NCBI RefSeq assembly: GCF_019968905.1
Contig: NZ_CP079946.1
Coordinates: forward strand, 7,661,356 to 7,725,355
DNA from: Corallococcus sp. EGB
GTDB lineage: Bacteria > Myxococcota > Myxococcia > Myxococcales > Myxococcaceae
DNA: 64,000 nucleotides
Direction of reading: 5' to 3'
In this document: in pieces, positions 23,776-29,866 of the stretch
How positions within the stretch are numbered: position 1 is the first letter of the stretch
How the letters are laid out: each line of letters begins with the position of its first letter
Notes under the pieces: generated by a model
Databases searched by the model: none
Told to the model about the DNA's origin: nothing
The model's input: the letters and a program-made list of their open reading frames with translations, nothing else
Program-made: the position numbers and the translations under genes

Positions 23776-25173
<1,398 letters not shown>

Positions 25174-25177
25174 CGCC

Positions 25178-26515
25178 ATGCGACCCGTGAGGCCTGGCCA
25201 GGAAGTGCCCCCGCGCGCGGAGACCCCGCGCGTCTTCGACCTGTCGCTGCCGGACCTGCCGCTGGAGGCCGGCGCCCGCGTGGCGCCCCACCTCGTGCGC
25301 GGCTGGTGGTGGGGGCCCCCGGAGGACCTCGCGTGGTTGCAGTCCCGCGCGCGCGTGCATTCCGACGAGGCGACGCGCGAAGGCCGGCTGCGCGTGGTCC
25401 GGAGGTCCGCCTCCGAGCTGCGCGACGCCGCCACCGACGCGCGCCGCACCGGCCCCCGACGCGCACCGGACGCGGTGCCCACCGTGCTGCTGGTGCACGC
25501 ACTCACCGGGGACATGAACGCCGGAGGTGAAGGCGGCTGGTGGGCGCCCGTCATCGGGCGTGGAAGGCCGTTGGATCCGACGCGCGTGCGGCTGCTGTGC
25601 TTCAACAACCTGGGCTCCTGCTACGGCACCTCCGGCCCCGCGGACGAGGGCTTCCCGCTGCGCACCGACGACACGCGCTTCGGCCCGGCGCCGGTGCTGC
25701 CCAAGGGCGACCTGCGCCTGGATGAGCGCAGCCTGCCCGCGACCATTACGCCTTGGGACCAGGCGCGCTCCATCCTCACGGCGCTGGACGCGCTGGGCGT
25801 GGACGAGGTGGCGCTCGTCATCGGCGGTTCGCTGGGCGGCATGGTGGTGCTGTGCCTGTCGGCGCTCGCGCCGGAGCGCTTCCAGCGCATGGTGCCCATC
25901 GCGACGGCGGAGGCCGCGTCCGCGTGGGTGGTGGGTTGGAACCACGTGGCCCGGCAGGCCATCCTGCTCGACCCCGAGTATCCCGAGTCCCCGAGGCGCG
26001 GCCTGGAGCTGGCGCGCCAGTTGGCGACGCTCACCTATCGCGCGGAGGCCGGACTGGAGGCGCTCCAGCCGAGGCCCCAGGCCTGGTCATCGCGCGCGCT
26101 GTATCCGGTGGAGAGCTACCTGGAACACCAGGGCCGGAAGCTGGAGGCGCGCTTCGACGCGCGGTCCTACCTGGCGCTGCTGGGCGCCATGGATCACCAC
26201 GACCTCTCGCGCGTGCCCACGCCCAAGGGAGGTCCCGGCGTGGACCGCATTCGCGCGAGCACGCTCGCCATCGGCATCGACCGGGACGTGCTCTTCCCGC
26301 CCGAGCACATGAAGAACCTCTCCCGGCGCCTGCGCGCGCAGGGACTGCATGCCGAGTACGCGGCCCTGTGCAGCGCGCACGGCCACGACGGCTTCCTCAT
26401 CGAATGGGACGCGCTCGCGCCCCTGTTGGTCCGCGCGCTGGCCCTGCCTCCGGGCGTGGGCCGCGATGCCCGCCTTTCCTCCCTTGCCGGCGTCCGCGCC
26501 CGGAAGACTTCATGA
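25178..26515 (+). CDS. metX: Homoserine O-acetyltransferase
   Basis: 445 aa, alpha/beta-hydrolase fold. Transfers acetyl from acetyl-CoA to homoserine, supplying MetY. The nucleophile Ser is in GGSLGGM (Ser 218). LVHALTGDMNAGG and NNLGSCYGTSGP are MetX family hallmarks, and the acid and base residues lie in DRDVLFPPEHM and HGHDGFLIEW. An N-terminal extension of about 60 residues and a helical insertion of about 20 residues make it longer than the usual 370-380 aa. It starts 4 nt after metY and ends overlapping the next gene by ATGA, so the three are translationally linked. Confidence 0.93.
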   Translation: MRPVRPGQEVPPRAETPRVFDLSLPDLPLEAGARVAPHLVRGWWWGPPEDLAWLQSRARVHSDEATREGRLRVVRRSASELRDAATDARRTGPRRAPDAVPTVLLVHALTGDMNAGGEGGWWAPVIGRGRPLDPTRVRLLCFNNLGSCYGTSGPADEGFPLRTDDTRFGPAPVLPKGDLRLDERSLPATITPWDQARSILTALDALGVDEVALVIGGSLGGMVVLCLSALAPERFQRMVPIATAEAASAWVVGWNHVARQAILLDPEYPESPRRGLELARQLATLTYRAEAGLEALQPRPQAWSSRALYPVESYLEHQGRKLEARFDARSYLALLGAMDHHDLSRVPTPKGGPGVDRIRASTLAIGIDRDVLFPPEHMKNLSRRLRAQGLHAEYAALCSAHGHDGFLIEWDALAPLLVRALALPPGVGRDARLSSLAGVRARKTS

Positions 26516-29025
26516 CCGCCCCAGTGAGCATCACCCGCTACGCACCGTTCCTCCTCGACACCGCCCAGGGACTCGCGTCCGTGGCCACGCACCTGTCTCG
26601 CCGCGACGCGGGCACCACGCGCGCCGCCATCGTGTCGTCACCGCCCTGGCTCGTCACGGGGCTGGAGTCCGCGCTGTCCATCGCGTTGAAGGGCAACTCC
26701 TCCCTGGCCCGGCAGGAGCTGGATGGCCTGCTCGCGCGGGGCCTGCTGATGCTGGAGGAGGCGGAGCGCCGGCTGGGCGCGCCCCCGGGCTCCACGTCGG
26801 TGGAGGCGGACGGCACTCGCACGCTGGCATCGCTGCTGGAGCCCGCGCGCCGAGCACTGGATGGCGCCAGCCTGGTGCGTGAACGGCGGCCCGCGCTGGA
26901 GGACGTGGTGCGCGGCACCGGCGAGCGGCTGACGGCGGCGCTGCTGGCGAAGCTCTTGGGTGCGCGCGGCGTACCGTCGCTGGAGGTGGACGCGGCGGAC
27001 TGGACGGTGACGGACGGAGAGCCCGGGCACGCGCGCGTGAACCGCGAGCACACCCGCTCCCGGGTGGCGACGCTGCGGCCAGCGTGGGAGGGACGGCTCA
27101 CGTTGCACGCGGGTGGCCGGGGCACGTCGCGGGATGGGCGCTCCACGACGCTGGGCGTGGAGGGCGCGGACGAGACCGCGGCGGTGCTGGCCGTGCTGCT
27201 GGGTACGCCGCTGACGCTGTGGACGGACGTGCCCGGGGTGATGACGGCGGATCCGCTGCACGTGGCGGACGCCCGGCCGGTGCCGCACCTGAGCTACACG
27301 GAGGCGCTGGAGCTGGTGTACCTGGGCCTGCCCACGCTGCACCCGCGCGCGCTGTCCACGCTGCGCGACGCCGACATCCCGCTGCGCGTGCGCCACCTGC
27401 AACAGCCGGATGAACCCGGCACGCTCATCGACGTGCGCGGCGCGGGCAACGGCAGCGTGCCCACGTGCGTGGTGTCCCTGGAGGACCTGGCGCTGCTGGG
27501 GCTGGAGGGCGGCACGGAGGAGGCGGCGCGGCCGGTAGGGCCTCGCGCGTTGCAGGCCCTGGAGGCCGCGGGCATCGACGCGTGGATGGCGGCGCAGTCG
27601 TCTCCGGGGCGCTCGGTGGCGGTGGTGCTGCGCAGGGCGCACGCGGCCCGGGCGGAGGAGGTGCTGCGGCGCGAGCTGGCCCCGGAGCTGGAGCGCGGCG
27701 CCTTGCAGCCGCCCCAGGTGCGCGCGCCGGTGACCCAGGTGGCGCTGGTGGCGGAGGCCATGGGCCAGGGCGCGAACGTAGCGGGACGGCTGTTCCAGCC
27801 GCTGGGCGCGCTGGGCATCAACGTGCGCGCCATCGCGCAGACGGCGAGCGCTCGCTCCATCTCGTTCATCGTGGACGGGGCGGAGACGGCGCTGACGGTG
27901 CGTACGGTGCACGCGGCCTTCCACTTCGCGCACGAAGAGGTGAGCCTGCTGGTGCTGGGCCATGGCGTGGTGGGCAGCCAGCTGCTGGAACAACTGCGCA
28001 CGCTCCAGGAGACGCTGGCGCAAGGGCACGGCATCCAGCTCAACCTGGTGGGCCTGGCGGACAGCCGGCGGGTGCTCTTCTCACCGGAGGGCATCCCGCT
28101 GAAGCAGTGGCGCGAGCGCATCCAGTCCGTGCCCGAGGGCGCGTCGCCGCCCGTGGTGCGCGCGCTGCTGGAGCCGCTGCGCCGGCTGCCGGTGCCGGTG
28201 CTGGTGGACTGCACGGCGGCGGAGGGCATGGAGGCGCTGTACCTGGAGGCGCTCCGCAGCGGCATCCACGTGGTGGCGGCGAACAAGAAGCCGCTGACGC
28301 AGCCGCTCGACGTGTGGGAACGGCTGCGGAGCACGGCGCACCTGAACCACCGCGCGTACCACTACGAGACGACGGTGGGCGCGGGGCTCCCGGTCATCCA
28401 GACGCTGAAGGACCTGGTGCGCACCGGGGACCGGGTGCACGGCGTGGAGGGTTCGTTCTCCGGGACGCTCGGGTACCTGAGTCAGCAGCTGATGGACGGG
28501 GTGCCGCTGTCGAAGGCGGTGCGCACCGCGCGCGAGAAGGGCTTCACGGAGCCACATCCTCGCGAGGACCTGGCCGGCACGGACGCGGCGCGCAAGGCGC
28601 TCATCCTCGCGCGGGAGCTGGGACTGGAGCTGTCCCTGGAGGACGTGGAGGTGGAGCCCTTCGTCCCGCACGAGTCCCTGGAGGAGGCGGACGTGGAGCG
28701 CTTCCTCACGGGGCTGGAGAAGCTGGACCGGACGTTCACCTCGCGCATCGAGGGGCTGCGCGCGGAGGGCAAGGTGCTGCGCTACCTGGCGCGCATCGAC
28801 CCGGCGGCGAAGGACGGGCGCGTGCTGCGCGTGGGCCCGGTGGCCGTGGCGAAGGAGCATCCGGCGACGCGGCTGCGCGGCTCGGAGGCGTTCGTGGCCT
28901 TCTCCACGGAGCGCTACGCGGACTACCCGCTGCTGGTGCAGGGCGCGGGCGCGGGCGGGCCTGTCACGGCGGCCGGCGTGCTCGCGGACATCCTGAAGAT
29001 TGCCCAGAACCTGCGGGGGCGGTGA
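26512..29025 (+). CDS. Aspartate kinase-homoserine dehydrogenase fusion with a degenerate kinase half
   Basis: 837 aa from ATG 26512 (ATGA overlap with metX). The architecture is that of ThrA/MetL: kinase-like domain (1-305), ACT region (about 310-465; VALVAEAMGQGANVAGRLF) and homoserine dehydrogenase (about 478-837). The dehydrogenase half looks active: VLGHGVVGS nucleotide loop, VAANKKPL, YETTVGAGLP, FSGTLGYL and the catalytic Lys/Asp region EDLAGTDAARKALILARE. In the kinase half the N-terminal KFGGTS motif is missing (RYAPFLLDT instead) and the substrate loop is altered (GVEGADETAAV for GRGGSDxTAAV), although WTDVPGVMTADP and LHPRAL remain. So it probably makes homoserine but may not phosphorylate aspartate. 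Confidence 0.9.
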   Translation: MTAPVSITRYAPFLLDTAQGLASVATHLSRRDAGTTRAAIVSSPPWLVTGLESALSIALKGNSSLARQELDGLLARGLLMLEEAERRLGAPPGSTSVEADGTRTLASLLEPARRALDGASLVRERRPALEDVVRGTGERLTAALLAKLLGARGVPSLEVDAADWTVTDGEPGHARVNREHTRSRVATLRPAWEGRLTLHAGGRGTSRDGRSTTLGVEGADETAAVLAVLLGTPLTLWTDVPGVMTADPLHVADARPVPHLSYTEALELVYLGLPTLHPRALSTLRDADIPLRVRHLQQPDEPGTLIDVRGAGNGSVPTCVVSLEDLALLGLEGGTEEAARPVGPRALQALEAAGIDAWMAAQSSPGRSVAVVLRRAHAARAEEVLRRELAPELERGALQPPQVRAPVTQVALVAEAMGQGANVAGRLFQPLGALGINVRAIAQTASARSISFIVDGAETALTVRTVHAAFHFAHEEVSLLVLGHGVVGSQLLEQLRTLQETLAQGHGIQLNLVGLADSRRVLFSPEGIPLKQWRERIQSVPEGASPPVVRALLEPLRRLPVPVLVDCTAAEGMEALYLEALRSGIHVVAANKKPLTQPLDVWERLRSTAHLNHRAYHYETTVGAGLPVIQTLKDLVRTGDRVHGVEGSFSGTLGYLSQQLMDGVPLSKAVRTAREKGFTEPHPREDLAGTDAARKALILARELGLELSLEDVEVEPFVPHESLEEADVERFLTGLEKLDRTFTSRIEGLRAEGKVLRYLARIDPAAKDGRVLRVGPVAVAKEHPATRLRGSEAFVAFSTERYADYPLLVQGAGAGGPVTAAGVLADILKIAQNLRGR

Positions 29026-29047
29026 GCCCCCGCGCCTGGCCAGCGGC

Positions 29048-29866
29048 TCAGTAGCCGACGTAGCCGCTGCCGCCGTTCATCGCCTGGATGCCCGGCGTGT
29101 TGGACACGGAGCCGTAGCGGTCCACCGCGTAGCGCACGGCCGCGACGATGTTGTCCACCGGGTTGCGGATGTTGTCGTGGCCCGGGACCTTGAACGCATC
29201 GAAGGTCGACTGGATGGTCTGCATCAGGCCGATGGAGGGGTGGCCATCCTTGGCGTTCTGGTCCGTGAGGTTGATGGCGTTGGGGTTGCCGCTGGACTCG
29301 TGCTCGATGATCTTCGCGATGTCCTGCGGGTTCATCTTGTCCGTCGGGACGCCGTTGGCCTTGAGGATCTCCATGGCCTGCTTGATCCAGTCACCCACCT
29401 GGCCCTGCGGGACCTCGCCCCCCACCGAGTCGGCCGACTGAGCGCCGCCGGCCTGGGACGCGTCACCCGCGTCGAACGAGTCACCCGCGTCGAACGAGCC
29501 ACCCGCGCTCGACGAACCCTCCACGCCCGCCGCATCGCCCGCGCTGGACACGCCCGACACCGCATCGGCGCCAGCCGCGCCGCCCGCGGAGGCGGCGCCA
29601 GCCATCTGGCCCTGGAGCAGCTGGACGAGCTGCTGCATCTGCTTCACCACGTCCTCCAGCCCCTCCGCGAACTGCTTCCACTGCGCGCCCTTCGAGGGGC
29701 CCGCGCTGAAGCCGTCCTGCTGGAACGGGGACACCCGGCCCGAGCCCGGCTTCGGGCAGTGGCCGCCCTGCACGCGGGCGCCGGACACGGCATCCGGGCG
29801 GGAAGCGAAGTCCTGGGAGGGGACGCGGAAGGAAGCGGAGCGGGCGGACGTGGGCGAGATGGCCAT
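29048..29866 (-). CDS. Lytic transglycosylase (SLT domain) without Sec signal
   Basis: 272 aa from ATG 29866, with GAGGAAA upstream. The N-terminal 60 residues have no hydrophobic signal. A helical segment (about 70-85; QFAEGLEDVVKQMQQL) is followed by a low-complexity Ala/Gly/Ser/Asp region (about 90-150) with a SFDAGD repeat. The C-terminal SLT domain (about 155-265) has the catalytic Glu in KIIEHESSGNPNAIN and SIGLMQTIQSTF. It cleaves peptidoglycan glycan strands. The layout resembles transglycosylases exported by special secretion systems. A sigma-54-like promoter lies at 29913-29928. Convergent with the met operon. Confidence 0.85.
   Translation of the reverse strand: MAISPTSARSASFRVPSQDFASRPDAVSGARVQGGHCPKPGSGRVSPFQQDGFSAGPSKGAQWKQFAEGLEDVVKQMQQLVQLLQGQMAGAASAGGAAGADAVSGVSSAGDAAGVEGSSSAGGSFDAGDSFDAGDASQAGGAQSADSVGGEVPQGQVGDWIKQAMEILKANGVPTDKMNPQDIAKIIEHESSGNPNAINLTDQNAKDGHPSIGLMQTIQSTFDAFKVPGHDNIRNPVDNIVAAVRYAVDRYGSVSNTPGIQAMNGGSGYVGY

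Follow-up and report, generated by a model that had tools for sequence, protein, structure and literature searches.

Homoserine dehydrogenase fused to a degenerate aspartokinase domain beside metX in Corallococcus

Aspartokinase-homoserine dehydrogenase (AK-HSD) fusions are textbook bifunctional enzymes under feedback control. In a 64,000-nucleotide stretch of Corallococcus sp. EGB (NZ_CP079946.1, positions 7,661,356 to 7,725,355; hereafter the window), the gene that follows metZ and metX encodes a protein with the domain order of such a fusion, and naming by overall homology would count it as an aspartate kinase. A preliminary description of this DNA had reported that the kinase half lacks motifs which bind ATP and aspartate, which raises the question of whether this half is still an enzyme and, if it is not, why it is kept. 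We favour, with a probability of about 0.65, an explanation in which the gene product is a mono-functional homoserine dehydrogenase (HSD) that carries a pseudo-aspartokinase as a scaffold for its ACT regulatory domains. Among the hits listed from the open-access literature (15 of 150 in one of the searches), none describes a pseudo-aspartokinase in an AK-HSD fusion, most subscription journals lying outside that coverage.

Ligand-binding residues of the kinase half

The window protein was aligned with Escherichia coli LysC, ThrA and MetL and with its relatives (ligand residues are numbered as in E. coli AKIII in this comparison, except for G11 and G12, which follow the window protein). KFGGTS had been described as replaced by RYAPFLLDT and GRGGSDxTA by GVEGADETA, and both replacements fall on those motifs in the alignment, with KFGG itself reading RYAP; the claim that WTDVPGVMTADP, LHPRAL and the motifs of the HSD half are kept also holds. 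For AKIII, an excerpt of PMC8092979 gives at least residues 8, 39, 45, 119, 184, 198, 199, 201, 202 and 222 for aspartate and 202, 221, 227, 232, 257 and 258 for ADP, with S39 and S201 common to both ligands. At these positions the window protein has the changes K8R, T45V, F184G, R198V, G199E, S201A, Y227M, R232L, K257P and V258T, whereas the equivalents of S39, E119, D202, T221 and D222 are unchanged. E. coli ThrA and MetL retain K8, T45, R198 and S201. The loss of active-site motifs stands as first described, to which the alignment adds the change at the K257 equivalent and the retention of E119, D202 and D222.

A set of 93 other family rows (85 distinct proteins) was compared, from which L055, L158, L174, the Corallococcus ThrA rows and the proteins of E. 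coli had been removed. Gaps aside, positions 8, 39, 45, 119, 184, 198, 201 and 202 do not vary in this set, and the equivalents of G11 and G12 are likewise kept. Throughout the 27 rows from Corallococcus and its sister genus (18 distinct proteins), K8 is always R, F184 always G and S201 always A, the Gly-Gly that follows K8 is always Ala-Pro, and the R198 equivalent is V, T, P or S. Loss of T45 is confined to the 24 rows of Corallococcus, the three sister-genus rows having retained it, and the E119 equivalent is D in two of the 24. None of the genomes searched from Corallococcus (16) or the sister genus (2) retains K8, F184, R198 or S201, an identical state that led us to reject an assembly error; the comparison with other myxobacteria proposed at the outset finds the domain degenerate in these genomes, while most other relatives have it intact. 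Of the columns that at least 97% of the 93 rows conserve, the window protein departs from 17 of 58 in the kinase, 1 of 19 in ACT and 0 of 91 in HSD (Fisher test, p 2e-8 for kinase versus HSD and 0.03 for kinase versus ACT), a comparison that is descriptive only because the 93 rows were defined by omitting degenerate ones.

Three of the changes were rejected as diagnostic: R is found at 232 in only 1 of the 93 other rows, M is the commonest residue there at 227, and E. coli MetL also has P at 257. A kinase motif at a shifted position was rejected as well, since none of the six frames of 24001-29100 contains K[FYLIV]G[GS] and the sole GRxGSD match in that interval sits on the opposite strand. 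At the level of sequence the ligand residues appear to be missing, not moved, and the refutation envisaged by the preliminary description, their preservation at shifted positions, was not borne out.

Could the protein still be an aspartate kinase, possibly a slow one, with a rearranged active site? The five unchanged ligand residues count against inactivity, as does the replacement of K8 by R rather than by a neutral residue. A third such point comes from the aspartate kinase of C. pekinense, for which the part of PMC4691045 available to us reports that all four tested Arg169 mutants have a 2.1-4.7-fold higher Vmax; if Arg169 is taken as the R198 equivalent, loss of that arginine alone leaves an active enzyme. 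The case for inactivity rests for this reason on the combined loss, chiefly that of Lys8 and the Gly-Gly loop. In NAGK, which serves as the paradigm for the amino-acid-kinase fold, Lys8 and Asp162 are key to catalysis according to an excerpt of PMC2851564. In the window protein the lysine, the Gly-Gly loop, T45, F184, R198 and S201 have changed together, and positions 48, 216 and 217 differ among Corallococcus species, which argues against a rearranged but working site and makes this alternative improbable. Pseudoenzymes are a recognised class, defined in the excerpted text of PMC10211241 by conserved catalytic motifs that are missing from the sequence, and by this sequence-based definition the kinase half falls within it. 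We infer from the sequence that kinase activity has probably been lost.

As the preliminary description had anticipated, the genome holds separate aspartate kinases, namely a ThrA-type AK-HSD (C1:6640-9273) and two mono-functional enzymes (L001, L002). All three have intact pockets, with equivalents of K8, S39, T45, E119, R198, S201, D202 and D222 (for the mono-functional pair, as checked in the genome of the window). Among the matches listed, both mono-functional kinases are represented in every one of the 16 Corallococcus genomes, and ThrA in all of them but G100.

Constraint and predicted fold

A second alternative holds that the kinase half is a functionless remnant heading for deletion, whose frame is kept only because the HSD lies downstream in the same protein. 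All 16 Corallococcus genomes carry the gene, with no internal stop among the matches listed (the copies in G100 and G122 are cut or split by contig ends, and G100 is covered for residues 1-341 only), and the domain is likewise present in both sister-genus genomes. Across 14 species, the ratio of nonsynonymous to synonymous divergence (dN/dS, Nei-Gojobori) was 0.131 for the kinase domain (residues 1-310; 95% confidence interval 0.089-0.182), 0.074 for ACT (0.039-0.110) and 0.140 for HSD (0.100-0.189). The kinase value is as low as that of HSD and lies under those of two control sets with intact kinases, for which only point estimates are given: 0.179 in the intact Corallococcus ThrA (9 genomes; HSD 0.087) and 0.201 in the Myxococcus-type AK-HSD (15 genomes of g6; HSD 0.224). 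The low kinase value, the still lower ACT value, the presence of the domain in every one of these genomes and a predicted N-lobe of mostly high confidence (below) all speak against a remnant.

The remnant nevertheless draws support from deeper branches, where kinase identity has fallen further than HSD identity, and several of the same comparisons weigh against the scaffold explanation that we favour. Between the window protein and L024 of the sister genus, identity is 66.5% in the kinase and 83.6% in the HSD, compared with 76.8/77.8% and 76.2/76.1% in two intact pairs, and kinase identity to L141 of M. xanthus is 34.0% for the window protein versus 53.4% for the intact L030. The kinase half is more diverged than the HSD on these branches and was therefore partly relaxed there. 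In addition, the dN/dS intervals of ACT and HSD overlap slightly, and the variability of the pocket described below is not significantly above that of the rest of the pseudo-kinase domain (p 0.28). Taken together, these values indicate that loss of the residues was followed by rapid change in the kinase domain, which is today under constraint; given its frame, its dN/dS and its confident fold, it is not simply in decay. Two further points in favour of a remnant, the excision of the kinase half in a sister lineage and the 6-7 inferred losses of the kinase in the family, belong to the history of the locus (below), and on balance we consider this alternative unlikely.

Residues 1-474 of the window protein were modelled with AlphaFold, giving a predicted local distance difference score of 89.1 and a predicted template modelling score of 0.86, with an N-lobe of mostly high confidence; the corresponding values for an intact M. 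xanthus relative were 93.8 and 0.90. The top match of the window model was the threonine-bound aspartokinase of M. jannaschii, 3c1n_A (Z 39.2, root-mean-square deviation 3.4, 449 residues), a rank shared by 2hmf and 3c1m, and E. coli AKIII (2j0w) matched with Z 36.9. The M. xanthus control model had the same top match (Z 45.5, deviation 2.5, 451 residues). Residues 1-474 are thus confidently predicted to retain the aspartokinase fold across kinase and ACT, although the window model may lean towards the fold of intact relatives, because these are contained in its input alignment.

In a third alternative, the former active site now serves as a different pocket, one that binds a ligand or acts as a sensor. 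N-acetylglutamate synthase offers a comparison: its kinase domain is related to acetylglutamate kinase, not aspartokinase, and the enzyme is not known to carry ACT domains. E. coli ArgA, a member of this group, reads by eye IMLGGEAI, with no Lys before the GG, a likeness to the window protein. According to the excerpt of PMC7878489, the amino-acid-kinase domain of N-acetylglutamate synthase holds an allosteric arginine site while the other domain catalyses, which provides a precedent within the same fold. There the effector is bound by the kinase domain itself, unlike in our reading of the window protein. The retained fold, constraint and acidic pocket residues would be compatible with a new pocket. 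However, four of 15 pocket positions (48, 138, 216 and 217) vary within Corallococcus, as against none of the same 15 in Corallococcus ThrA (9 genomes) and one in the Myxococcus-type AK-HSD, and the variation at 48, 216 and 217 argues against a specific ligand there. We therefore regard this alternative as very improbable.

Relatives and history of the locus

The window gene belongs to an AK-HSD family of Myxococcota and Verrucomicrobiota that often lies beside metX or metZ-like genes and whose HSD half, in the two members compared, is 58.9% and 59.2% identical to that of the window protein. We fetched 79 loci across sequenced genomes, 64 of which have both K[FY]GG and GR[NG]GSD, whereas Corallococcus and Citreicoccus do not. 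The remaining 15 comprise 11 loci of Corallococcus/Citreicoccus (one of them, L103, titled only Myxococcaceae), two other degenerate forms (L158, with its N-terminus cut by the contig, and L174) and two technical cases (L109, cut by a contig end, and L140, used only from its internal stop onward). L140, an AK-HSD from a Bradymonadales metagenome, has KFGGSS upstream of a stop codon inside its kinase half, upstream of 6217. L174 (5824-7803, +), which retains ACT, HSD and the final part of the kinase but has no kinase N-lobe, possibly represents another stage of kinase loss. The AK-HSD of L055 (3999-6551, +) is also degenerate (RIGGPS, GRNGAD, E119S), and its kinase half carries an EHTEA repeat insert; its genome, G007, is 2.7 Mb and 99% complete and is assigned to a family that also includes myxobacteria of 9 Mb.

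Where the window has metX and the fusion gene after metZ, other Myxococcaceae have either a MetX-HSD fusion that follows metZ as in the window (L042, L044, L045) or a stand-alone HSD (L043, L046). Unlike the window protein, L042 and L044 are without kinase and ACT domains. In L042 a short linker connects the C-terminus of MetX to the first strand of HSD, and L046, in which HSD stands alone, keeps AVRLTHPAF, which by eye resembles the last ACT helix of the window protein (VRTVHAAF). This junction and this remnant indicate removal of a kinase-ACT block, and the sequences point to a sister lineage in which, within the same operon, kinase and ACT were excised together and MetX was joined to HSD. 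Such an excision formed no part of the preliminary description. The existence of MetX-HSD fusions means that an HSD at the metX locus can do without the kinase half. The fusions join homoserine acyltransferase to homoserine dehydrogenase, consecutive steps in reverse order (L042:2189-4777, L044:2279-4831 and L045:2052-4595, all on the minus strand, and L047-L054), and a literature search found no description of them. The f2 genomes, which we take to be Anaeromyxobacter-like, also have MetX-HSD fusions, with a MetX 37-39% identical to that of the window.

In Pfam searches, neither AA_kinase nor ACT was found in the five fusion or stand-alone HSD proteins scanned, and ACT_9 was found in each of the five whose kinase is degenerate or a remnant (the window protein, L024, L055, L158 and L174, the last with an AA_kinase score below the cut-off). 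In the 10 relatives scanned, kinase and ACT thus go together, both being present or both missing.

A 79-row HSD tree placed the pseudo-kinase clade (6 rows, 100/100) as sister to the Myxococcaceae fusions L042 and L044 (98/92), with at least 7 changes between the intact and lost states; in a 48-row tree the clade branches beside the MetX-HSD rows without joining them, so its placement depends on sampling. We do not claim that the MetX-HSD fusions of Anaeromyxobacter-like genomes and those of Myxococcaceae arose independently: the best tree separates them, but a single clade is not rejected by the approximately unbiased test (p 0.234). Six is for that reason the safer minimum of the 6-7 changes, a count that does not separate gain from loss and in which three changes are each supported by one row only (L055, L158 and L174, of which two come from metagenome contigs).

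In the scaffold explanation, the HSD would be linked to the adjoining methionine genes metX and metZ, and its kinase half would be catalytically dead yet folded. The dead fold would hold the ACT domains in register and probably join oligomer contacts, an end product bound by ACT (threonine or another aspartate-family amino acid) would still control the HSD half, and aspartyl phosphate would be supplied by the three other kinases of the genome. A scaffold role fits because kinase and ACT are kept or lost together and because ACT has the lowest dN/dS. The suggestion of the preliminary description that the domain is kept for an allosteric or structural purpose is in this way supported indirectly, through purifying selection, predicted fold and linkage to ACT. 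A naturally kinase-dead AK-HSD beside cleanly excised sisters would be a ready natural experiment on what kinase and ACT do for HSD. More tentatively, and with rather low confidence, the dead site may have taken on a new role, as a sensing pocket or a docking surface through which the flux of HSD into methionine is set. In that case recurrent inactivation of the kinase in the metX-linked family would uncouple a branch enzyme from the first step of the pathway while the allosteric machinery stays, and the excised MetX-HSD fusion would be an alternative end point.

Gene layout and further copies

The features of the locus are collected in Table 1. The preliminary description had the start of the fusion gene (26512, its ATG lying inside the metX stop) and the ThrA-like domain order right, the Pfam order being AA_kinase, ACT_9, NAD_binding_3 and Homoserine_dh. 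An upstream start at TTG 25753, as far back as the open frame runs, was rejected: the additional stretch overlaps metX, and its length differs among species (open frames of 852 to 1283 residues in full copies). Besides the domain order, the gene shares with E. coli ThrA/MetL its place near methionine genes, as metL lies near metB; it differs in the lost kinase pocket and in scoring below the ThrA equivalog cut-off, ThrA NF006959 being the best NCBIfam model (665.7 bits against 726), and NF007003 also falls below its own (428.2 against 582). Both HSD models, PF03447 and PF00742, score above cut-off, and the conserved E, D and K of this half, which we take to be the catalytic residues, are kept. 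No RNA element was found upstream of the operon, and no Rfam match at the gathering threshold anywhere in the 64-kb window; a plasmid megablast gave no match. The host genome is a single contig of 9.43 Mb.

Table 1. Position and basis of the features of the metZ-metX-HSD locus in the window
Feature	Position	Strand	Basis
metZ-type O-acetylhomoserine sulfhydrylase; heads the presumed operon	23884..25173	+	TIGR01326, 651 bits (cut-off 495)
metX-type homoserine O-acyltransferase; stop overlaps next start (ATGA)	25178..26515	+	TIGR01392, 249 bits, below cut-off 500; alpha/beta hydrolase PF00561
Pseudo-aspartokinase/ACT/HSD fusion, 837 residues	26512..29025	+	Open reading frame and domain searches
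Degenerate aspartokinase catalytic domain, residues 1-310	26512..27441	+	PF00696, residues 124-294; predicted fold aligns from residue 5 on
RYAPFLLDT replacing KFGGTS, residues 9-17	26536..26562	+	Alignment
E138, kept equivalent of AKIII E119	26923..26925	+	Alignment
GVEGADETA replacing GRxGSDYTA, residues 215-223	27154..27180	+	Alignment
Kept WTDVPGVMTADP, residues 237-248	27220..27255	+	Alignment
GLPTLHP where AKIII has GAKVLHP, residues 272-278; K257 equivalent is P	27325..27345	+	Alignment
ACT regulatory domains, residues 311-474, part with lowest dN/dS (0.074)	27442..27933	+	ACT_9
HSD domain, residues 475-837, motifs intact (E680, D691, K695)	27934..29025	+	PF03447, PF00742; 0/91 near-invariant columns changed

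In the sister genus, intact paralogous AK-HSD genes lie beside metB-like genes (L056:4901-7378 and L057:3024-5501), so that G006 and G002 hold a pseudo-kinase HSD and an intact AK-HSD paralogue together. Among the matches listed for Corallococcus, there was no whole-protein match of about 50% identity to this intact paralogue. A Myxococcus-like AK-HSD beside a metB-like gene was also found in L127, a record that bears the title Comamonas sp. KCTC 72670 but is probably mislabelled, the ends of the AK-HSD being identical to those of G026, a genome of the same family.

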